This document shows, in pieces, positions 5,178-15,013 of a stretch of DNA of 21,129 nucleotides. The position numbers and the translations under genes are program-made. This stretch comes from a virus, in the IMG/VR virus record IMGVR_UViG_3300024518_001052, positions 1 through 21,129 of that record. One strand, written 5' to 3'. The notes beneath the pieces were generated by a model. It searched no databases, was not told the origin of the DNA, and saw only the letters and a list, made by a program, of their open reading frames with translations. Each line of letters starts with the position of its first letter. Within the stretch, counting starts at the first letter, position 1.

Positions 5178-5719
5178 TATATTAAGAAGTCCAAGACAGC
5201 CTGCCCGATTGCTTTAGTTGAAAACTGGTCTGGGCTTTCCGGCACATCAGTTTTTATTCTGTTTGATGGGTCGTATTCTTTAAAGCTCACATTAAGCATA
5301 AGGCCATTAAACACCTCTTTTGTTTCCCTGTGAGGAATAGCCGTAACAATCATTCTTTTATACTCACGAGCCTTAAGCTTTACTGTAACCTCATCGCCGC
5401 GTAAATAATAATCCTCAACCTGATTGAAAATATTATTATTGTCATCCTTAGTAACCACCATAGCGATGTCAATTTCAACCGGTAAAATTATTCTATGATC
5501 TGTAAGAGTTTCATTGTTATCAAGTGGATGCGAGAAGCTTCTCGAAATATCACGAACGCTGGCCGACATTGGCTGCGCTTGATTTCTAGTCCCTAGCCTG
5601 CCACCTGATAATTGATTAACGAGGGTTTTTTCTCCAACGAAAATCTGATCACCTTCTGCGTTATATATAGCAACAGAATCTGTTGACAGCAGAGGGAGTG
5701 AAGACGTTAATATTCCCAT
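5177..5719 (-). CDS. Dit-like tail/baseplate protein
   Basis: This 180-aa protein lies between the tape measure and the baseplate plug. It contains the segment SHPLDNNETLTDHRIILPVEI, the strand series DIAMVVTKDD, and the motif YKRMIVTAIPHRETKEVFNG, which ends in a LMLNVSFKEYD strand. This series resembles the N-terminal ring-forming domain of distal tail proteins, which build the hexameric ring at the tube's end. It would connect the tail tube to the hub. Junctions on both sides are TAATG, so translation is tightly coupled to its neighbours. The Dit assignment is by pattern and order, not by an alignment. Confidence 0.74.
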   Translation of the reverse strand: MGILTSSLPLLSTDSVAIYNAEGDQIFVGEKTLVNQLSGGRLGTRNQAQPMSASVRDISRSFSHPLDNNETLTDHRIILPVEIDIAMVVTKDDNNNIFNQVEDYYLRGDEVTVKLKAREYKRMIVTAIPHRETKEVFNGLMLNVSFKEYDPSNRIKTDVPESPDQFSTKAIGQAVLDFLI

Positions 5720-6927
5720 TACGCAAGCCTGCTTGATCGGGTTAAATTGAAGGCGTCGGTCATACTGTTATTAATTTCCCTGGCTATATTCATTCCGTCA
5801 CCACCGTTAATATTAAACGTTTGGCCGCCCATGGCCGTACTGTTGTCGTTATTCGTGGTGGACGTGTTCTTTGTATTAAATGTCTCGTTGTTCTGCCTTG
5901 CGGTATCCTGCAGAGCCTCATAACCCTCAATTAAGAAATCAGGGATTAATCCCTTACTAAAATCTTTAAAGAATTGAGCGTCCGGAATGACATCTGCCGA
6001 ATCTTCACCATCCCGCATATTATTCAGTAAATTATTAGCACCCTCTAAAACATCAAATATAGCCTGTGCATTATCAAGAAGCGTTTCTGAAAAAAGGCTT
6101 TCCATTGATTGTTGAAGCTCTCGCATTTCAGTATTCAAATCTTTAACTATCTTGGTATCTTCTGGCGTCATTTGATGCTGAGTCCTGCGAACCTCTGAAA
6201 GCTGCCCTCTTGTAACTGACGATCCTTGGCGGCCAATCTTTAACATGGACTCATCCCATCCAAGTTGAGCAAACACAGATTGCCTTGCGGACTTGCTCAT
6301 GCCCTCAGCGTTAATCGCGTCATTAAGCTCTAAGAAAATCTGATCTGATTGCTTAGCCTTGTTCCCGCTCATCAATGAAACGCCGAATCGAGAAGCCATG
6401 CGCCCTAGCGAGCTTTCACCCAAAGTTTCAAGATTACCAACTTCTTGAGATATTGCGCTAAAGGTTTTGAAGGCCGCGCCTGAATCACCGCCTGCGCGTT
6501 GAACTATCCTTGACCAGTTTTGGATTTTAGCGGCGGACACATCGATAATACCAGACTGAAATGCAACATCTAAAGATCCGGTAAACGCATCAGTGAAACC
6601 AGCCGCAATTGCCTTAGCGCTCATGTATGAGGCGGCAAGGCCAGCAAGCTGAGTTACACGCCTGCGAAGAATATCATTACCCTTCGTTCGAGTTTTGTTG
6701 ATTTTCTCTTCATCATCAATCCTTCTCTTCCTGCCATGCTTCCTCTTTTGCTCAAGCGAGTCATCATCAAGCTTAATCTTAATGCTTTTATCGAGTTCTT
6801 TATCGAGTTTTTTAAGGGAGGCGACAAGTTCATCATTGCCCTTTTTGGCTGCGTCCCATTGCTTTTTTAAGGCGTCAAGGTTTGATGTGAACTCAAACCC
6901 GAACTGCGCAACGATATCTGTAGCCAC
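5719..6927 (-). CDS. Tail tape measure protein, short
   Basis: This 402-aa protein sets tail length and is released from the tail on infection. The N-terminus (to about residue 75) is a highly charged lysine/aspartate-rich coiled-coil-like stretch. Next comes an arginine-rich RRRVTQLAGLAASYMSAKAIAAGF segment, which is the usual mildly hydrophobic tape-measure helix. A glutamine/asparagine/threonine-rich linker (about 345-370) precedes a C-terminal NGGDGMNIAREINNSM helix. By the common rule of about 0.15 nm per residue, the tail would be near 60 nm, which is a short contractile tail. No peptidase or lytic domain is visible. The GTG start at 6927 directly follows the stop of the frameshifted chaperone product, with no intervening base. 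Confidence 0.85.
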   Translation of the reverse strand: MATDIVAQFGFEFTSNLDALKKQWDAAKKGNDELVASLKKLDKELDKSIKIKLDDDSLEQKRKHGRKRRIDDEEKINKTRTKGNDILRRRVTQLAGLAASYMSAKAIAAGFTDAFTGSLDVAFQSGIIDVSAAKIQNWSRIVQRAGGDSGAAFKTFSAISQEVGNLETLGESSLGRMASRFGVSLMSGNKAKQSDQIFLELNDAINAEGMSKSARQSVFAQLGWDESMLKIGRQGSSVTRGQLSEVRRTQHQMTPEDTKIVKDLNTEMRELQQSMESLFSETLLDNAQAIFDVLEGANNLLNNMRDGEDSADVIPDAQFFKDFSKGLIPDFLIEGYEALQDTARQNNETFNTKNTSTTNNDNSTAMGGQTFNINGGDGMNIAREINNSMTDAFNLTRSSRLA

Positions 6928-7514
6928 TTACTCACCTATATTTGAATTGTATTTATCAACAACGATAGATTCCCATATTAGCATGGCATCTTCAAGATCA
7001 ATAGTTGACCTCAATTCCTTCATCATCATAGGGCTTTTAGCTATGATTGTTCCGAGGATAGGGTCGATATTAACTGTAGCAATGAATCTGTCGCTGCCCC
7101 CGCCGCGAGACTTAATATTGAGCGGGAGCCTTCTGGCAAAAAACTTGTGTTGTATGCAAGCATTTCGCTTTCCAGTGCTACTAGCGTTTCCATATCGCCA
7201 ACGTGTACTGATGTGAACGCTGGAGACTCGCCGAGGCAGTGAGCCTCATTATTCACATCAACAGTTACATGACGCATGATGCAATTTGTTATTGCCATCT
7301 TTTCCATAGGAGAGGATATTTTTGGCAATGACGCATGAATGTAGTGATCAAATAACGCTTTGCCTGTCATGGCGTCAAATCGATGAATGGTGAATTTTCT
7401 CTCATCTCCATCCATGTCAGTAATAGTTATTGACTTGGGTTTAAGCAAGTCATCAACTTTAGGCGTTATCTGGTCAAAGTAATCTATAAATGGCTGGTTG
7501 TTAGTTACTCCCAT
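6928..7514 (-). CDS. Tail assembly chaperone, long (GT-type) -1 frameshift product
   Basis: A -1 shift at heptamer T TTT TTG (7143-7137) joins residues 1-126 of the short chaperone to 69 residues read from 7137 down to 6931, with stop TAA at 6930-6928. The join is at ...SFL followed by ARRLPLNIKS. The fusion is 195 aa. The extension contains AKSPMMMKELRSTIDLEDAM and LIWESIVVDKYN, a helical segment of the type expected for the T domain that binds the tape measure. The extension has no start codon of its own near its beginning and no other gene fills this space. Its stop abuts the tape-measure GTG. Frameshifting at this gene is conserved across tailed phages, though this instance is inferred from sequence only. 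Confidence 0.85.
7041..7514 (-). CDS. Tail assembly chaperone, short (G-type) product
   Basis: A 157-aa protein between tube and tape-measure genes, the position of the G/GT tail chaperones that hold the tape measure while tube subunits polymerise. It shows ITITDMDGDERKFTIHRF near residues 29-46, then AMTGKALFDHYI, followed by helical material. It resembles the beta-plus-helix G domain of such chaperones (for example T4-independent, Mu gp41-like). The zero frame ends with TAG at 7043-7041. The final 31 residues are encoded after a slippery heptamer at codons 124-126, where part of the ribosomes are expected to switch frame, so this is one of two products. The start overlaps the tube stop (TAATG). 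Confidence 0.82.
   Translation of the reverse strand: MGVTNNQPFIDYFDQITPKVDDLLKPKSITITDMDGDERKFTIHRFDAMTGKALFDHYIHASLPKISSPMEKMAITNCIMRHVTVDVNNEAHCLGESPAFTSVHVGDMETLVALESEMLAYNTSFLPEGSRSILSLAAGAATDSLLQLISTLSSEQS
7096..7129 (-). promoter_or_regulatory. Frameshift-stimulating hairpin
   Basis: Starting seven nucleotides after the heptamer, GCTCCCGC (7129-7122) pairs with GCGGGGGC (7103-7096) to make eight consecutive pairs. Seven are Watson-Crick and one is T·G (7127 with 7098). The loop is 18 nt (7121-7104). The stem is markedly more GC-rich than its surroundings. Distance and strength are those of a typical frameshift stimulator that stalls the ribosome over the slippery site. Confidence 0.8.
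7137..7143 (-). promoter_or_regulatory. Slippery heptamer for -1 ribosomal frameshift
   Basis: On the minus strand the zero frame reads AGT TTT TTG, giving the canonical X XXY YYZ heptamer T TTT TTG at codons 124-126 of the tail chaperone gene. Both tRNAs can re-pair one base back. A 7-nt spacer separates it from a strong hairpin. The -1 frame then stays open for 69 codons to the base before the tape-measure start. Confidence 0.88.
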
Positions 7515-7957
7515 TATCCTGTGAAGCCTCCGAATTTGAATGAGTAAGTTTTAGTCGTTTTGCGGCCCGAAGCATCAGCGCTGGGTAGCGGCGCGTACTC
7601 CGCACAAATACCGGTAGTGAATAGCGCTTTCTGCCCATCTGGATAAGTCCAAGCTAAAGTCACAGTGTCATTTGCAACACTCTTGCCAGCTTGAACGCGA
7701 TTCATGTTGAAGGCAGCTGAAAGGTTTTTATCATCATTGCCCCCTGGTATAACTGAAATCTCTACATCTAAAGAGTTAGCAGTTGCCCACGTCACAAAAT
7801 GACCATTAATACCCATTGCGCCGTCACCAATCTGAACGCCGTTAACTGTTATTGCACCAGTGTCATCAGAGAATTCCGTTAACTCAAACGGAACCCCCTT
7901 CAGGCTATTTGAAAAAGTAATTAAGCCGCTCTGGCCTGTTACGCTAATATTTGGCAT
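7514..7957 (-). CDS. Tail tube protein
   Basis: A 147-aa beta-rich protein between the sheath and the tail chaperone, the fixed position of the tube protein in contractile-tailed phages. Strand-like stretches include SGLITFSNSLKGVPFEL, LDVEISVIPGG and TVTLAWTYPDG, and the protein ends KTYSFKFGGFTG, close to the usual strand-rich tube C-terminus. The fold expected is the hexameric beta-barrel ring around the DNA channel. I do not recognise a named domain with certainty, so the call leans on position and size. A perfect GGAGG lies 8 nt before the ATG, the strongest ribosome site in the tail block, which fits a high-copy subunit. Confidence 0.8.
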   Translation of the reverse strand: MPNISVTGQSGLITFSNSLKGVPFELTEFSDDTGAITVNGVQIGDGAMGINGHFVTWATANSLDVEISVIPGGNDDKNLSAAFNMNRVQAGKSVANDTVTLAWTYPDGQKALFTTGICAEYAPLPSADASGRKTTKTYSFKFGGFTG

Positions 7958-7961
7958 GGTT

Positions 7962-9494
7962 TTAACCTCCGCTTACCGCAATGTTACGGCCTTCAATAAA
8001 TTTGATTGAGTCACCCATTACATAAATTAGAGTGTAATCAGCTTGGAATTCAGTGCCGTTTTTAGATAGGCTAATGGTCAAATAATAACCATTGTTCTCT
8101 ACCTGCAAATAAGCGCGTGGATCATTTGTTAATGTGGTGATTGCGCCGATGGTAGATATATCGAGCGTGTTCCCAACACTAAAAGAGCCGTTAATCAAAG
8201 CCGTATCGATAGTGGGCTGCATGGCGGACTCAATGTACTGAAGACCTGCAGTATTTGCGCTAACGATAGGGCTTGATAGCTGCATGTTAAGCAACGCAGC
8301 CACAATAGAACTCTTAATCCATATCTCGTTAACGTATGGGCCTATATTCATAATATCCGTACCAACAACACCGGACATTGCGCCGCGCTGGTAGAATGCT
8401 ATTTTTTGACCTTCTGTTTGGGTTTGCGCGTAGATGTTCATGCCTAAACCAGTGTAAAGCTCATAATCAGCAAAATCTGTGAAAGCATTAGCCTCATAAA
8501 CGCCATATTGGTAATACATGTATGACTGCGCAGCGCCGGGGTCTGAAAAGCTTGTAGCACCACAAATTAACCCAGGGAAAAATTCAACGTAGTCGGGAGC
8601 AGTTACGGTAATGTCCTTTATGGCTGTGATTGCTGTCCCGCCAGTTAGTAGCATTTCGTTAATGTTTGCCGCGTAATCTCCACCAGCAGCATAAAGCGCC
8701 ACATCCGAGCCGTACAAGAATAAGAATTTATTATTATATGTATTTAGCAGTGCCGAAGTGGAGAGCCCCATTGATGCGTCTGAATCAACACCGCATAAGC
8801 CGGTGCTAAAGAAATTATCCGACGTGGCAATTGAGTCCGCAATGCGCTCATCGATAATTGTGGCAGCGTCTTGGCCAAGTGAAGCCACAGACCCAGTAGA
8901 CCAACCGACAGCAACGAGGAAAGCAGTTCCGGCAGCATCGTCAGGGGTTACGGTAACTGAAGTCTGAACTCCGGCAGGAAAGTTTATAATCAATCTTGCC
9001 GTGTCCGTGTTGTATACGCATGTAGCGCCAGTGAATACAGCGTCAGTACCAGCAGCAAGCGCCGTTTGCACATCGGCAGCAACGTCAGTCATTGATGAGG
9101 ATGAAGCCACCACAACGGCAAATGATTCTTCGGTGCCTGATACATCGATGGATATATTATACGTATCAGCAGGCAAAACCGTGTGGCCTCCAGATGTGCC
9201 AAAGTACTGAGCGCCTAAGGCTGCAATATTAGCATTGTAAAAACTAAGCAATTTAGGCGAGCGAACCAGCTTTGATGTAAAGCCGAAATACTGCACGGCA
9301 AAAGTATATTGAGGGGATGTAAACCCAAACCATTCACCAACTTCTTTGGCGCGTTTGAATTCAATCACAGTGCCAGTAGGAAATTCAGTAACATCGAGGC
9401 ACATACCCCGAAACCCACTATCCCGACCATCCAGCAGGGAAGCGCCCGCAACCCCCGAAATGATATTGATATATTCGTTAATTGGAACGCTCAT
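7962..9494 (-). CDS. Tail sheath protein, DUF3383 family
   Basis: This 510-aa contractile sheath protein wraps the tail tube and shortens to drive the tube into the cell. The N-terminal region holds GFRGMCLDVTEFPTGTVIEF and AKEVGEWFGFTSPQYTFA, then a motif with KLLSFYNANIAALGAQYFG. Residues about 110-215 form an inserted beta domain with the DUF3383 pattern (DTYNISIDVSGTEESFAV, then VAADVQTALAAG, ARLIINFPAGVQTSVTV, ending at a SLGQDAATI segment). The C-terminal part includes a segment ending YLQVENNGYYLTISL, the usual sheath C-terminal strand region. Start ATG is preceded by a short AGAG site and by a promoter in the 76-bp gap. The tube gene follows after 4 bp. Confidence 0.9.
   Translation of the reverse strand: MSVPINEYINIISGVAGASLLDGRDSGFRGMCLDVTEFPTGTVIEFKRAKEVGEWFGFTSPQYTFAVQYFGFTSKLVRSPKLLSFYNANIAALGAQYFGTSGGHTVLPADTYNISIDVSGTEESFAVVVASSSSMTDVAADVQTALAAGTDAVFTGATCVYNTDTARLIINFPAGVQTSVTVTPDDAAGTAFLVAVGWSTGSVASLGQDAATIIDERIADSIATSDNFFSTGLCGVDSDASMGLSTSALLNTYNNKFLFLYGSDVALYAAGGDYAANINEMLLTGGTAITAIKDITVTAPDYVEFFPGLICGATSFSDPGAAQSYMYYQYGVYEANAFTDFADYELYTGLGMNIYAQTQTEGQKIAFYQRGAMSGVVGTDIMNIGPYVNEIWIKSSIVAALLNMQLSSPIVSANTAGLQYIESAMQPTIDTALINGSFSVGNTLDISTIGAITTLTNDPRAYLQVENNGYYLTISLSKNGTEFQADYTLIYVMGDSIKFIEGRNIAVSGG
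7966..7970 (-). promoter_or_regulatory. Strong ribosome binding site of the tail tube gene
   Basis: GGAGG on the minus strand lies eight bases upstream of the tube ATG (7957-7955) and overlaps the end of the sheath gene. Most neighbouring genes rely on stop/start overlap with weak Shine-Dalgarno sequences, so this site suggests independent high-level initiation. Confidence 0.8.
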
Positions 9495-9515
9495 ATTTTA
9501 AATCTCTATTTGTTG

Positions 9516-9544
9516 TTTATAAATAAGTCAATAGTGTATCACAA
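9516..9544 (-). promoter_or_regulatory. Sigma-70-like promoter upstream of the tail sheath gene
   Basis: On the minus strand, TTGTGA (9544-9539, 4 of 6 to consensus) is followed by exactly 17 bp and TATAAA (9521-9516, 5 of 6). Initiation would fall near 9509, about 15 bases before the sheath ATG, leaving a short leader with AGAG. It lies in one of only two gaps longer than 50 bp in the window, immediately before the highest-copy tail protein genes. No start-site data are available. Confidence 0.6.
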
Positions 9545-9550
9545 GGCTTT

Positions 9551-9569
9551 AAAAATCCGCTATTCAGCG
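9551..9569 (-). terminator. Weak terminator-like hairpin after the neck genes
   Basis: CGCT (9569-9566) and AGCG (9561-9558) form a 4-bp stem with loop GAAT, followed by GA and five T residues (9555-9551). The stem is short, so termination would be partial at best. Its placement between the neck-terminator stop and the promoter of the sheath gene makes it worth recording, but it may be chance. Confidence 0.25.
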
Positions 9570-9570
9570 C

Positions 9571-10140
9571 TTATGGCAAAGTTTCAGTGCTGTAAACCTC
9601 GCCAATAATTGTATCTATTCTATCACTTGCGTAGTCGAAGTCCTGCGTATAGTTAAGCGTCATATCGAATGTAGGCTCCGGCTGAAACTGATCAGAGTTA
9701 TTCAGGGGCTTATGATTTGTAACTTCCGGAATCTTCTGTATTCCTATTCCGAACTGAAGTAGTCTTTCTATCGCCTCTGGCGTCTGCATCCACATGGATA
9801 GCATCACAGCGGCATCGTATGATGATGGCCTAAACAACCCGTAATCCCCTCTAATGGGCGTGGAAACCTCCAACAATTTAACTTGAAAAGGCTGTATTAA
9901 TATTTGCTTTGGCGTTGCCGATATAACAGTATCATCTTCTGTGTAACCGCGAGACTGAGCGCCGTAGTTGAGCGCATCCATGCTAAAAATGTAACAAGTC
10001 ATATCCGCCGGAACGTTGGCCATCTCGGTGTTAAATGAGCGTTCAATCGGAACCTGAATACCATAGTCTGAATTAAACCGAGCCGCCCACAATTCCATTT
10101 CATTAATAAGTATGGTGAATATTTGATTCTCTAAAATCAT
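9571..10140 (-). CDS. Neck terminator protein, Pam3 gp12-like
   Basis: A 189-aa protein just before the sheath gene, where contractile phages encode the tail terminator that caps tube and sheath under the collar. The C-terminal region reads FQPEPTFDMTLNYTQDFDY followed by ASDRIDTIIGEVY, which matches the end pattern of neck-terminator proteins of the LIC_12616 / gp12-like type. N-terminal helices (ILINEMELWAARFN) are also as expected. Its start overlaps the collar stop (TAATG). Because the match is remembered rather than aligned, I call it a likely neck terminator. A generic tail-completion role would be the alternative. Confidence 0.7.
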   Translation of the reverse strand: MILENQIFTILINEMELWAARFNSDYGIQVPIERSFNTEMANVPADMTCYIFSMDALNYGAQSRGYTEDDTVISATPKQILIQPFQVKLLEVSTPIRGDYGLFRPSSYDAAVMLSMWMQTPEAIERLLQFGIGIQKIPEVTNHKPLNNSDQFQPEPTFDMTLNYTQDFDYASDRIDTIIGEVYSTETLP

Positions 10141-11108
10141 TAAGGCTGCTCCAGCAGTGCAAACTCTTCAAAAACTTTGTAGAGCGGCTGCGTAACCGTA
10201 ACTTGGCCAGCAATGGAGTCGCCAGTAACATTAACTATGCAAGCGTAGCCAGTTAACTGACTGAGCGGAGCGGGGGTCGTGAATTGATCTGAAATCATCT
10301 CGCCTAAATCCCTTGAATACAGAGTTATTTTTGCTGTGACCGAATCCACTTCAGCCAATGACAGCCCGTAAATATCGGAATCAATCTCTTCAATTGGCCT
10401 TAAATCATCGTACTCAACGAAATCACCAGGCGTTACCAGTTGAAATGTTGTCATGGCCACACCCCTAGCTACTAGCGTATAGGCAAGGGTTGAGGTTGAG
10501 TCGAGCGAGAAAGCAGCCCCCACAGCCCCGTTGGATATGATATCCAGAGACCCGGGCTCAATGGTGAAGTTGAATCCGCTCTCTTCTGCTGGAATGCTTA
10601 TTTCTTCACTTCTCATACCTGAAAGCGTATCTATTTCAGCGACAGAAAAAGATATGTCTGATTCAATTACAGTATTCATAGGGACTAAGTTAAATCCAGT
10701 TACGCCGCCATCATCCTGATTAACTTGAAGACCGTTCGCAGGAATTATTTCTTGGAATGGAATCTCTATGCATATGTAGCTATCAAACCCATCAGTATCT
10801 TGCCACCCTGTACGGGTAGATACTTGGTATGTTTTCCCGCTAAAATTAAACCTTGAAAGCCCTAGGCTATACCTCTGCATAGCAGTCAGTGATGGCGTTG
10901 AGTACACATGCTTATAATTCTTATGCATAGTCAGACCGTGATCAATAAACATTTTACGAGTAACTGAGTTTACCTTCAGGCATGCTTCGTAAGGAATCCC
11001 GTCACCAGTATAAATCTGTCCAGCTGAGTTCTTTTGCCTTTCCCCTGGAGGAACCACCATTACAAGCTGGGGAGGGATTATCGATAGCGCGACATCTAAA
11101 AGGCTCAC
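10140..11108 (-). CDS. Collar protein with long C-terminal extension
   Basis: This 322-aa protein has two parts. Residues 1-118 show the phage collar pattern: SLLDVALSIIPPQLVMVV at the start, MFIDHGLTMHKNYKHVYS around 53-70, FNFSGKTYQVSTRTGWQDTDG near 87-107, and YICIEIPF at 111-118. That domain normally sits in the neck between head-completion proteins and tail terminator. Residues about 119-322 are an extra, beta-rich, acidic region (for example SDISFSVAEIDTLSG) and no known domain is recognised there. Family members that I recall are close to the N-terminal part only. The start is GTG in a GTGA overlap with the upstream gene. Confidence 0.72.
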   Translation of the reverse strand: MSLLDVALSIIPPQLVMVVPPGERQKNSAGQIYTGDGIPYEACLKVNSVTRKMFIDHGLTMHKNYKHVYSTPSLTAMQRYSLGLSRFNFSGKTYQVSTRTGWQDTDGFDSYICIEIPFQEIIPANGLQVNQDDGGVTGFNLVPMNTVIESDISFSVAEIDTLSGMRSEEISIPAEESGFNFTIEPGSLDIISNGAVGAAFSLDSTSTLAYTLVARGVAMTTFQLVTPGDFVEYDDLRPIEEIDSDIYGLSLAEVDSVTAKITLYSRDLGEMISDQFTTPAPLSQLTGYACIVNVTGDSIAGQVTVTQPLYKVFEEFALLEQP

Positions 11109-11578
11109 TTATTGCCCACCCTATGATCAACAGAATTAAACATTAACATCGTATCCTCTAGGGGCTTAGTACTGTTATTTCCACGCTCCCGCCTTTCTGC
11201 AATAGTTCGAGGAGATAGCACCGGAGACTTAACGCGATTAATGGATTTCTTGATATCCTCTTCGACTATCTCGCCCAGCACATCAAATATCTCAATGACA
11301 TTCAAGCCACCTTTGGCAGCACCGCCAGCGCTTTGCCTTACAATCTCAATCCACTTTTTCCCGTTAACCGCAAGTGTTGGCCGTATAAATGGGCGTGGGG
11401 GCTGCTGTTTTTGAGCTACCCCATATTCATTATCGTAAGCTACGGAAGCAACCGACCTGCCATCTTCATACTTTGGCCCATCAAAAAATCCCGCACTCAT
11501 ACGCACAACTTTAGGTGTTTTCTCGATAAAATCGATCAACGCTTTTCCAGCTGGAGTTATGGTCGCGGTATATTTCAC
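11105..11578 (-). CDS. Head-tail or tail completion protein, HK97 gp10-like
   Basis: A 157-aa protein of the HK97 gp10-like family, which joins the finished head to the tail or stabilises the connector. Diagnostic pattern: VRMSAGFFDGPKYEDGRSVA, then DNEYGVAQKQQPPRPFIRPT (residues about 25-68), followed by a basic helical tail with SPVLSPRTIAERRERG near residues 118-133. It lies between the DUF4054 adaptor and the collar gene. It starts with GTG in a GTGA overlap with the adaptor stop and ends with TGA inside the GTG start of the collar gene. The family call is reliable; the exact step in neck assembly is not. Confidence 0.85.
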   Translation of the reverse strand: MKYTATITPAGKALIDFIEKTPKVVRMSAGFFDGPKYEDGRSVASVAYDNEYGVAQKQQPPRPFIRPTLAVNGKKWIEIVRQSAGGAAKGGLNVIEIFDVLGEIVEEDIKKSINRVKSPVLSPRTIAERRERGNNSTKPLEDTMLMFNSVDHRVGNK

Positions 11579-12060
11579 AAATAATCATTCTGGGCATTAA
11601 GGCCGGTCATTACAGCTGACCCACCAAGATAGAATCCGCCTGCGGTATTCGCTTTAAGCATGGCGATATACTGTGAGCCGTACGGGGTTTGACTGAAAAA
11701 CCAGAAATAATAATTATCTTGAACTGGTGGAGGCATTACCGTTGCCGAAACATCGCCAATGGTTGACGATATAGCAATAGTATTACCTCCAAACGGAGAC
11801 TTAGAATCAGTGCCAGCGGCAATTAAATCATTGTAAGCCATGAGGTGAGCTGTAACATAGTTCAACATCATAAATTGAGCTTGTAAATCGAACAAGCAGC
11901 TCACCTCACCATCAAGATAAGTCCACGATAAACACCAATACCAATCAATTACAGAATCAGGGTAATCAGTTTCATTTGCAAATGCAGGGAATAACTGCCT
12001 AAACAATGCATAATTAGGCTGAATATACCCGTCAATAACTTCTGGTACTGGTAGCGCCAT
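11575..12060 (-). CDS. Head-tail connector adaptor, DUF4054 family
   Basis: This 161-aa protein fits the adaptor that docks beneath the portal. Features in order: FRQLFPAFANETDYPDSVIDWY near the start, a long helix FMMLNYVTAHLMAYNDL, the IGDVSATVMPPP turn, and then FFSQTPYGSQYIAML ending in GGFYLGG. This series is the DUF4054 signature. An AAGGGG Shine-Dalgarno overlaps the stop of the upstream gene and lies 7 nt before the ATG, so this gene has its own good initiation site. The next gene overlaps its stop as GTGA. Confidence 0.88.
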   Translation of the reverse strand: MALPVPEVIDGYIQPNYALFRQLFPAFANETDYPDSVIDWYWCLSWTYLDGEVSCLFDLQAQFMMLNYVTAHLMAYNDLIAAGTDSKSPFGGNTIAISSTIGDVSATVMPPPVQDNYYFWFFSQTPYGSQYIAMLKANTAGGFYLGGSAVMTGLNAQNDYL

Positions 12061-12064
12061 GACC

Positions 12065-12073
12065 TACCCCTTA
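12065..12073 (-). promoter_or_regulatory. Ribosome binding site of the DUF4054 gene
   Basis: AAGGGG reaches into the 10-bp gap between the preceding stop (12073-12071) and the ATG at 12060. The G run lies about 6 bases upstream of the start codon. Unlike many neighbours, this gene does not depend on an overlapping stop codon. Confidence 0.65.
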
Positions 12074-12589
12074 GATGTCAAGCTGCTTAGTGGTTACTTC
12101 AGCGCTTGCTGTAGCCTTGCCAGAACTCTCAGCAGCTCGCAATGTTGCATCAGTGTGAGCGTAACCTCCATCTTTATCAGCCATCTCTTCCTGTACGATA
12201 GCTTCAATCTTGGCACGGGTATCGATAGTCTTACCGGTAAATGATAAGAATCCATTTTTATGGTGCTTGAACATCGACTTATTATTAATCGCTGCCATGA
12301 ATTGCTTGCCGGTGAATTGTGTAGCTGTACCGTTTGGAGTTACTACGCCACGGAAACCGATACCTGCAACGCCAGAGCCGCCATACACTACTAGCGAGTC
12401 AGATTGCGTAGGCGTACCACCTTCACCAACTTTATGCACTGAGCCGTAATCGTTGCTAGCGGCCATTTTTGAAATAATGGTAACTGTACTGTCATCCGCA
12501 TGCGCTTTTTTCATTTCTTCAATCCACTTAGAATGTGGGGTCTGCGCTGCACGAACTACTTGCGTGTTTTCGTCTTTATTTTTACTCAT
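12071..12589 (-). CDS. Unrecognised 172-aa protein between capsid and neck genes
   Basis: I do not recognise this protein. It begins with a highly charged, probably disordered stretch (MSKNKDENTQVVRAAQ), followed by a helix KWIEEMKKAHADD. A glycine-rich middle includes SLVVYGGSGVAGIGFRG near residues 65-81, and the tail is alanine/threonine-rich with a VQEEMADKDG helix. No membrane segment or catalytic signature is visible. It lies between the capsid terminator and the DUF4054 adaptor. Its expression is presumably lowered by that terminator. A head-vertex, capsid-decoration or connector function fits the location, but this is inference. Its RBS is a weak AGAG about 9 bases before the ATG. Confidence 0.75.
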   Translation of the reverse strand: MSKNKDENTQVVRAAQTPHSKWIEEMKKAHADDSTVTIISKMAASNDYGSVHKVGEGGTPTQSDSLVVYGGSGVAGIGFRGVVTPNGTATQFTGKQFMAAINNKSMFKHHKNGFLSFTGKTIDTRAKIEAIVQEEMADKDGGYAHTDATLRAAESSGKATASAEVTTKQLDI

Positions 12590-12620
12590 GTTGTTTTCTC
12601 TTTGGCTGGTTTATAGAATT

Positions 12621-12655
12621 AAAAAAGGTAGAACACATTACGCATTCTACCTTTT
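12621..12655 (-). terminator. Intrinsic terminator after the major capsid gene
   Basis: On the minus strand, AAAAGGTAGAA (12655-12645) pairs perfectly with TTCTACCTTTT (12633-12623), an 11-bp stem with an 11-nt loop, followed by further T residues so that the T run is six long. It sits 24 bp after the capsid stop in the 90-bp gap. It would reduce transcription into the neck and tail genes, giving the capsid protein a higher level than its downstream neighbours. The plus-strand version has a T4 tail and would be weaker. Confidence 0.85.
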
Positions 12656-12679
12656 CAGTGTCGCTATGCAAAACCGGTA

Positions 12680-13870
12680 TTAAATACCAGTGCCACGAAC
12701 GTTAGCGAAAGGACGTTTCAAGATACAACCGGCTGTAGCATTGCTGTACGCCTCTTTGTAACCTTTGGTCAATTGCTGAACGCCTAGAGCGCGGTAACGT
12801 GAAGGAACAACTTGCTCCCAAGTATTGCCGCCATCAGTACCTGAATCTGCAACGTTATCAGCGAAAATGTAAATAACATTCTCACCACCGTTGGCTGCAT
12901 CCATTTGAGGAGCAACAACCACACGCGAACGAGGGTAGGTCTTCTTCAAATAATCCAGAACTGAGAAGCCTAAAGCACCGTTAACGCTGGTGTTATTTAG
13001 GTACTGAGCGCGACTTGGGCCAATAACAATTGTAGTTGCATCGGTTGCTGGGTCGATAATGCCGTTTGATTGGGCTTGTAGCTGGGCATACAGTTGGACG
13101 AACTGATCAACAATGCCTTTATAGCTAATCAAATCCCATTCAGTGTCACCACCTTCTTGCTTCAATGGCAAGTAAGCACCAAGACCCGGATCATTCAAAA
13201 AGCCGTAAGTTGCGCCAGCGCCATCGTTATAACCGTTAAAGCCGATTAAGTTACGAGAGATTTCTAAAGCCATCATCGCAGCATTACGTTTTTCAGCGCT
13301 ATCTGAGATGCGGATTTTAGCAGAACGCTCTTGCTCTAAAATGCCGACTTGAATGCCGTTATCACGACGCACGATAGTACGACCATCAAAGCTCACAGTG
13401 TAATCACCAACTTGTACGTTAGTGGTGTCGCTGTACGGCTGAGTTTCGCCAGAGTGCTCCATGATAGTGTAAACAACTTGCTCATCAGCCCAATCACCAG
13501 CGGTTTTAACGCCTGTGATTGTATCGATCAAGCGAGGAGCTTTTAACACGTTAATGTGACCAGGCATCCACGTTTGGTTGAACTGCACCAAAGATGGGAC
13601 GTTTTGCGGCAATACTGCAGGCGCTAAACCAGCATCCATCGCAGCAGATTCAACAGCGTTATCAAAACCGGTAACATCTTGATTTACACGTGTGTAGCCT
13701 TCCATTAATCCGCGCTGATAATCAGGCGTGAAATGAATACCTACAGTCGCCAAGTTAGCAATGTCTGCATCCAAGATATGTGCATCTTGAGCAACAGACA
13801 AACCGCCTACATTAACAGCAGAGATGTCGCTGTGGACGGGGGATACGTCCGATTGATTATATTTTCTCAT
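12680..13870 (-). CDS. Major capsid protein, DUF2184 family
   Basis: This 396-aa protein forms the HK97-fold head shell. The N-terminal arm ends with GIHFTPDYQRGLMEGYTRVN. Later come LPQNVPSLVQFNQTWMPGHI, VKTAGDWADEQVVYTIMEHS, RNAAMMALEISRNLIGFNGY and VVVAPQMDAANGGENVIYIF, the typical DUF2184 series, ending in AGCILKRPFANVRGTGI. I chose ATG at 13870 because it lies one base after the cement stop with GGGTG upstream. A GTG at 13879 would add three residues and an 8-bp overlap. The gene follows a cement gene and is followed by a strong terminator, consistent with the highest-copy product of the block. Confidence 0.92.
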   Translation of the reverse strand: MRKYNQSDVSPVHSDISAVNVGGLSVAQDAHILDADIANLATVGIHFTPDYQRGLMEGYTRVNQDVTGFDNAVESAAMDAGLAPAVLPQNVPSLVQFNQTWMPGHINVLKAPRLIDTITGVKTAGDWADEQVVYTIMEHSGETQPYSDTTNVQVGDYTVSFDGRTIVRRDNGIQVGILEQERSAKIRISDSAEKRNAAMMALEISRNLIGFNGYNDGAGATYGFLNDPGLGAYLPLKQEGGDTEWDLISYKGIVDQFVQLYAQLQAQSNGIIDPATDATTIVIGPSRAQYLNNTSVNGALGFSVLDYLKKTYPRSRVVVAPQMDAANGGENVIYIFADNVADSGTDGGNTWEQVVPSRYRALGVQQLTKGYKEAYSNATAGCILKRPFANVRGTGI

Positions 13871-13871
13871 C

Positions 13872-14411
13872 TTATACACCCGCCAACATGTCAGTTGAAC
13901 CAGTTAATTGAATGATACCAACTTCATCAGCAAGAACGTTACAACGAACCACTGAAGCGCCGATAATTTGAGTTTGACCAACTGCAGGTAATGCACCTGG
14001 GGCGATAGCCGCAAGAGCACCTGTCGTGTCATCAAATACCACACCGTCACCAATATTGGCAGCGGTTGAGAATGTAACAAATACACCTGGAGTCTGAAGA
14101 ACTAACCCAGCGGTTGATTCGTTTGGCAGTGTAATGGTATCGGCTAATGGGTTGCCAGCAGCACCAAAAGAAGAATGCTCCTTAGGGTTCCACAAGATGC
14201 CAGCGAAAGAAACGCCAGCGCCGCCAGCTTCAGCGTAACCATCGTTACCAGCTCCGGCTGTTTGAGTGAATGCGCTACCAAAAACGTTATAGGCAGCATC
14301 TGCACTATTTAAAGCTTTTGGTTGTGCGAATGTCGGGCCTTCAATTGCGCGGTTGCCCACGTAACCAATGACTTGGCTTTCATATACTTTATCAGCAGCT
14401 TGAAAAGTCAT
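13872..14411 (-). CDS. Capsid cement protein, Gp24-type
   Basis: A 179-aa protein directly upstream of the capsid gene. It matches structural cement proteins of Gp24 type, which bind outside the shell and stabilise it after expansion. Evidence: EGPTFAQPKALNSADAAYNVFGSAF near the start, GVSFAGILWNPKEHSSFG around residues 65-83, then LPNESTAGLVLQTPGVFVTF and NIGDGVVFDDTTGAL. The sequence is small-residue and beta-rich. A strong AGGAG lies seven bases before the ATG, and the start also overlaps the protease/scaffold stop (TAATG). High expression is expected, to match the capsid protein. Confidence 0.85.
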   Translation of the reverse strand: MTFQAADKVYESQVIGYVGNRAIEGPTFAQPKALNSADAAYNVFGSAFTQTAGAGNDGYAEAGGAGVSFAGILWNPKEHSSFGAAGNPLADTITLPNESTAGLVLQTPGVFVTFSTAANIGDGVVFDDTTGALAAIAPGALPAVGQTQIIGASVVRCNVLADEVGIIQLTGSTDMLAGV

Positions 14412-15013
14412 TACATTTCTCCTTTCGCGTAATTTGCGATAGATGAGTTAACAGGAGCTGCATCTTCAGCATCCATTGCGATAGGCGTTTTTGGCTCTGC
14501 CATTTGAGCAACAGCAGCTGAAAAAACAGTATGTTTAACAGCGGTGTCTTCGTGGTCGCAAGCAATAGACATTTTATCCATTGAGTACGTCAAAATGTCA
14601 CCCAAGCTCATATCGGCATGATCAAACGCGCCAATGTGAGGGGATGCAGAATCGTACACTTCACCAATCAAAGCAGAATCAGCAGCAACCGAAGATGCTT
14701 CCATTTGAGCCTTCATTGAAATAAATGTAGGGTGCGATTCAACCAAAGCAGTCACAGCTTCAGCATCTAAACCGGTAGCGGAATCAGCGGCTTCTGACTT
14801 TTCGCCATCTTCCATATCTTCAGCTTTTTTCTTCTTGGCGCGTTCCTCTCGGTCTGCGTCAACTTCTTTTTTAGTTGCTTCAGATTCGTCAAGAGCGGTA
14901 GCTACGGCAGCAGCGACAACAGACTCAATGCGTGAATCAAAAGCTGCAGCCTGAGCGGTGGCATGTTCGCCGAACAGCTCCGTCATTAGCGCTCTTACTT
15001 CTTCTGGATTCAT
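14411..15013 (-). CDS. Possible nested scaffold product from internal start
   Basis: An in-frame ATG at 15013-15011 (codon 211 of the protease/scaffold gene) would give a 200-aa protein MNPEEVRALM... that lacks the protease domain. It begins exactly where protease-like sequence ends and scaffold-like sequence begins, and GAAGG lies 10 nt upstream. Nested scaffolds of this kind are established for lambda C/Nu3 and Mu I/Z. Here the spacing is somewhat long and there is no direct evidence for use of this start. Confidence 0.45.
   Translation of the reverse strand: MNPEEVRALMTELFGEHATAQAAAFDSRIESVVAAAVATALDESEATKKEVDADREERAKKKKAEDMEDGEKSEAADSATGLDAEAVTALVESHPTFISMKAQMEASSVAADSALIGEVYDSASPHIGAFDHADMSLGDILTYSMDKMSIACDHEDTAVKHTVFSAAVAQMAEPKTPIAMDAEDAAPVNSSIANYAKGEM

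Follow-up and report, generated by a model that had tools for sequence, protein, structure and literature searches.

In phage lambda, the tail assembly chaperone gene lies between the genes for the tail tube and the tape measure, and frameshifting in the -1 direction at the slip site G_GGA_AAG yields, beside the short chaperone G, a rarer fusion, GT, with a C-terminal domain. According to the lambda model, the short product lies along the tape measure and the minor fusion brings the tail subunits (PMC5009743). P2-like phages use a T6G slippery sequence for the E/E+E' frameshift, which serves the same purpose (PMC3931495). This kind of frameshift is well known, and the joined product of S141_46/S141_47 is already annotated in Shewanella sp. 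phage 1/41, a relative of the phage described here; a literature search found no paper on a frameshift in this particular phage group.

The window, that is, the whole stretch of 21,129 nucleotides that was analysed, is a 21-kb piece of a phage that has a contractile tail; its genes lie on the minus strand. As an earlier note on this DNA had stated, a chaperone gene sits between the tube and tape measure genes; the tube gene matches PF22764, and the tape measure gene has PHROG matches. The locus resembles lambda G/GT in the position of the gene, the -1 direction and the predicted pair of a short chaperone and a rarer fusion with a C-terminal domain; it differs in its T_TTT_TTG site and contractile tail, and the likeness is one of layout. 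With P2 E/E+E' it shares the contractile tail, the T6G heptamer and an extension in the -1 frame that runs in the direction of the following tail gene (PMC3931495), but its neighbours are of the E217/DUF3383 type rather than of P2 type, and the likeness is one of layout and heptamer. Shewanella phage 1/41 has a homologous tail assembly chaperone with the same neighbours and, by the HMM used here, a T domain in the -1 frame; its own site, CTT TTT TCA, however, is without a canonical X_XXY_YYZ heptamer. On sequence grounds, there is support for counting the site as a new tail-chaperone frameshift of the type known from lambda G/GT and P2 E/E+E'.

The features are collected in the table. Annotated relatives keep the same arrangement, with sheath, tube and chaperone followed by the gap and the tape measure. 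In Vibrio phage BT-1011 (locus L018, 2002-2676), an annotated HNH endonuclease gene lies between the tube and chaperone genes. The zero-frame chaperone begins at an ATG at 7514 and stops at 7043-7041; its homologues, of which some are annotated as tail assembly chaperone, come from KLEP17-4, Leptolyngbya, Erwinia, Bordetella and Aeromonas phages. Its N-terminus (7514-7455, minus strand) has about 20 residues more than the relatives, whose starts fall near the motif 'LxKPK'; the true start may be farther downstream than the ATG at 7514.

Table. Features of the tail chaperone locus in the window and, in the last row, G-like chaperones of other loci
Feature	Position	Strand	Evidence
Tail sheath (DUF3383)	7962..9494	-	PF11863, E=8e-48; phrog_205 tail sheath
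Tail tube protein (E217 gp32-like)	7514..7957	-	PF22764, E=9.3e-38
Tail assembly chaperone (G-like), zero frame, 157 aa	7041..7514	-	ORF; homologues; leave-one-out HMM, E=2.9e-27
Slippery heptamer T_TTT_TTG, codons 124-126	7137..7143	-	Direct reading; T_TTT_TTN near the homologous place in 94/109 distinct relatives
Spacer CCAGAAG, 7 nt	7130..7136	-	Direct reading; fold
Downstream hairpin, 9 bp including two G.U, 16-nt loop, -16.0 kcal/mol	7096..7129	-	Predicted fold
-1 extension (T-like domain), 69 codons + TAA	6928..7137	-	phrog_3976; phrog_20369; tblastn; leave-one-out HMM
Tape measure protein, 402 aa, GTG start at 6927	5719..6927	-	phrog_8125, E=1.2e-10; phrog_2276, E=2.1e-10
G-like chaperone without recognisable T-like -1 extension	L015 (PB1) 8794-9199; L016 (Pluto) 8790-9204; L020 7309-7699; L009 2982-3384		

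Read letter by letter, the heptamer is in phase with zero-frame codons 124 (AGT, 7145-7143), 125 (TTT, 7142-7140) and 126 (TTG, 7139-7137) and starts on the last base of codon 124, just where the earlier note had placed it; the 7-nt spacer described there was also found. The note had further described an 8-bp GC-rich hairpin. A stem is indeed present at the usual spacing, with GCTCCCGCT (7129-7121) pairing with GGCGGGGGC (7104-7096), but it has 9 bp, two of them G.U, and is statistically weak by itself, with a z of only -1.05 to -1.5 against dinucleotide shuffles. Only 1.9% of the 50-nt windows of this sequence fold equally well. Alone, the hairpin is weak support, not clearly above shuffled sequence; it is nonetheless the probable stimulator of slippage. 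For covariation in the stem, no moderately diverged relative was found to compare: the sole near copy, IMG/VR contig 3300024520_001039 (11.9 kb), has 100% identity to positions 6881-14494 over the 7.6 kb compared, and hence contributes no independent variation. The heptamer class by itself is not rare and does not exceed chance: the window contains 25 in-phase X_XXY_YYZ heptamers in 6803 codon positions. The local sequence alone does not show more than chance, and it is the comparative evidence that is decisive.

From 7137 the -1 frame is open to a TAA at 6930-6928, directly before the tape-measure GTG, in agreement with the 69 codons counted previously. The 113 bp between the zero-frame stop and the tape measure (7040-6928) hold no called gene, and this stretch, which gene finders had been expected to leave empty, is also empty in the annotated relatives examined, except Shewanella phage 1/41. 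Among the PHROG families, phrog_3976 is matched by the -1 segment with E=1.7e-7, and a match to phrog_20369, which bears the name 'tail assembly chaperone', is weak (E=0.0089); tblastn gave matches in 15 phages (best E=5e-6). An HMM built without the window detected the segment with E=7.8e-17, and in a six-frame search the same HMM found nothing besides it above the inclusion threshold. These HMM and tblastn matches bear out the proposed GT domain arrangement, and by homology the -1 segment codes for a conserved C-terminal protein domain.

When viral contigs were scanned with single sequences of the chaperone, tube and sheath, nothing came up beyond the identical contig and a single distant relative, and these scans were replaced by searches with a sheath alignment as the query. 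The sheath-based searches gathered 133 loci in all, in viral contigs and prophages as well as in phages. Of these, 119 have both domains, or 109 after duplicates were taken out; both counts include the window itself, and the loci are related, so that counts of relatives are not independent events. In every locus having both domains (119/119), the T-like domain is in the -1 frame relative to the G-like domain. Homologues with neither the heptamer nor an open -1 frame would, according to the earlier note, speak against the frameshift; the two-domain relatives, however, all keep the -1 frame. A canonical heptamer lies within the overlap in 100 of the 109 distinct loci, and in 94 of these it is T_TTT_TTN; AAAAAAG, GGGTTTT or AAATTTT takes its place in a few relatives. 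When the loci were clustered at 70% amino acid identity, 60 of 62 clusters had a canonical site in every member, and 54 had T_TTT_TTN throughout. If each locus followed its own codon usage, the codon before the Phe would end in T in about 35% of cases and Phe would be written TTT in about 61%, whereas the two were observed together in 94/109. The comparison of these sequences thus indicates that the T_TTT_TTN pattern goes beyond amino acid demands at the nucleotide level, and that conservation in the relatives is far beyond chance.

Folding follows the same position. Across 100 relatives, the 50-nt folding minimum is the window beginning 10 nt from the heptamer start, with a mean of -12.7 kcal/mol against about -8 in the flanks; the mean z there is -1.2, with flanks near 0. 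A second calculation against shuffles gave a mean z of -0.82 there, -0.12 upstream and -0.26 farther downstream. In many relatives a stem of 9-10 bp begins about 6 nt after the heptamer. When stems were forced in the relatives to fix an exact spacer, the values scattered widely, with small maxima at 6 and 8 nt, which is not strong evidence.

The -1 domain is also kept by nine of the 109 distinct relatives, from two lineages, that have no canonical heptamer. In the enterobacterial lineage (L008, L011, L045, L071, L079, L093 and L101) the site reads TTC TTC GAA/GCA AAG, and in the other (L019 and L105) it reads CTT TTY; all nine contain A_AAG or U_UUY tetramers. Single-tRNA tetramers of this sort are known to support -1 shifting in E. 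coli constructs (PMC4066793). Locus L068, which clusters with heptamer-free loci, has T_TTT_TTC, so a change of slip site inside that lineage seems to have taken place. Possibly, the slip site drifts in this chaperone family and the two heptamer-free lineages would rely on tetramers like A_AAG or U_UUY, a suggestion that we make tentatively. The T domain was not found in PB1-type phages, Pluto and XcP1, in which a G-like gene directly adjoins the tape measure, its stop beside the tape-measure start, nor in Aeromonas phage Gekk3-15, in which the G-like gene is followed by another gene.

We put at roughly 0.95 the probability that a -1 programmed frameshift at T_TTT_TTG makes a chaperone fusion carrying the T-like domain; with the -1 frame and the heptamer so widely kept in the relatives, the fit with the known chaperone frameshift suggested by the earlier note is supported. 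The T-like domain could instead be a small gene apart from the chaperone, translated from a start codon of its own. ATG triplets do occur in frame inside the -1 frame of this phage, and phrog_3976, at 67 aa, has the size of a stand-alone product. The first ATGs in the window (ATG ATG ATG), however, fall in the middle of the conserved domain, and 72 of 100 relatives contain no ATG, GTG or TTG from the slip site to where the T domain begins, which speaks against independent initiation. The annotated relatives examined, Shewanella phage 1/41 excepted, have no gene called in the stretch, and a separate T gene would leave the conserved in-phase heptamer unexplained; we regard it as very improbable.

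Just as improbable is that RNA polymerase slips on the T run and the fusion arises in transcription, from mixed mRNAs. Six consecutive T do make the site a homopolymer, but efficient polymerase slippage usually needs longer runs, and the T run is usually only six: among the 94 T_TTT_TTN relatives it has 6 T in 70, 7 in 22 and 9 in two. Moreover, a few relatives have other heptamers in its place, the nine heptamer-free ones are without such a run, and a stem at ribosomal spacing agrees with translation. Homopolymers also favour indel errors, so that an assembly or sequencing error in the T run might have split one continuous gene. This reading, whose likelihood is close to nil, is refuted by the -1 relation that all two-domain relatives share, isolate genomes included; the second contig is also identical across the slip site.

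What we infer is the slippage, how often it happens, its stimulation by the stem and the contacts between the proteins. In this scheme most ribosomes would make the 157-aa chaperone. A minority would slip back one base at T_TTT_TTG, where the hairpin 7 nt downstream would assist them, and would translate 69 more codons, which, added to the upstream codons, would give a fusion of about 195 aa that carries the T-like domain. If lambda is a guide, many short chaperones would coat the tape measure protein, a few fusions would recruit tube subunits, and both products would depart from the finished tail. Knowledge of tail assembly itself is unchanged by these observations. What they identify is a hidden domain that gene callers omit, both here and in most deposited relatives, in an arrangement maintained by a wide range of phages and prophages that have a DUF3383 sheath.
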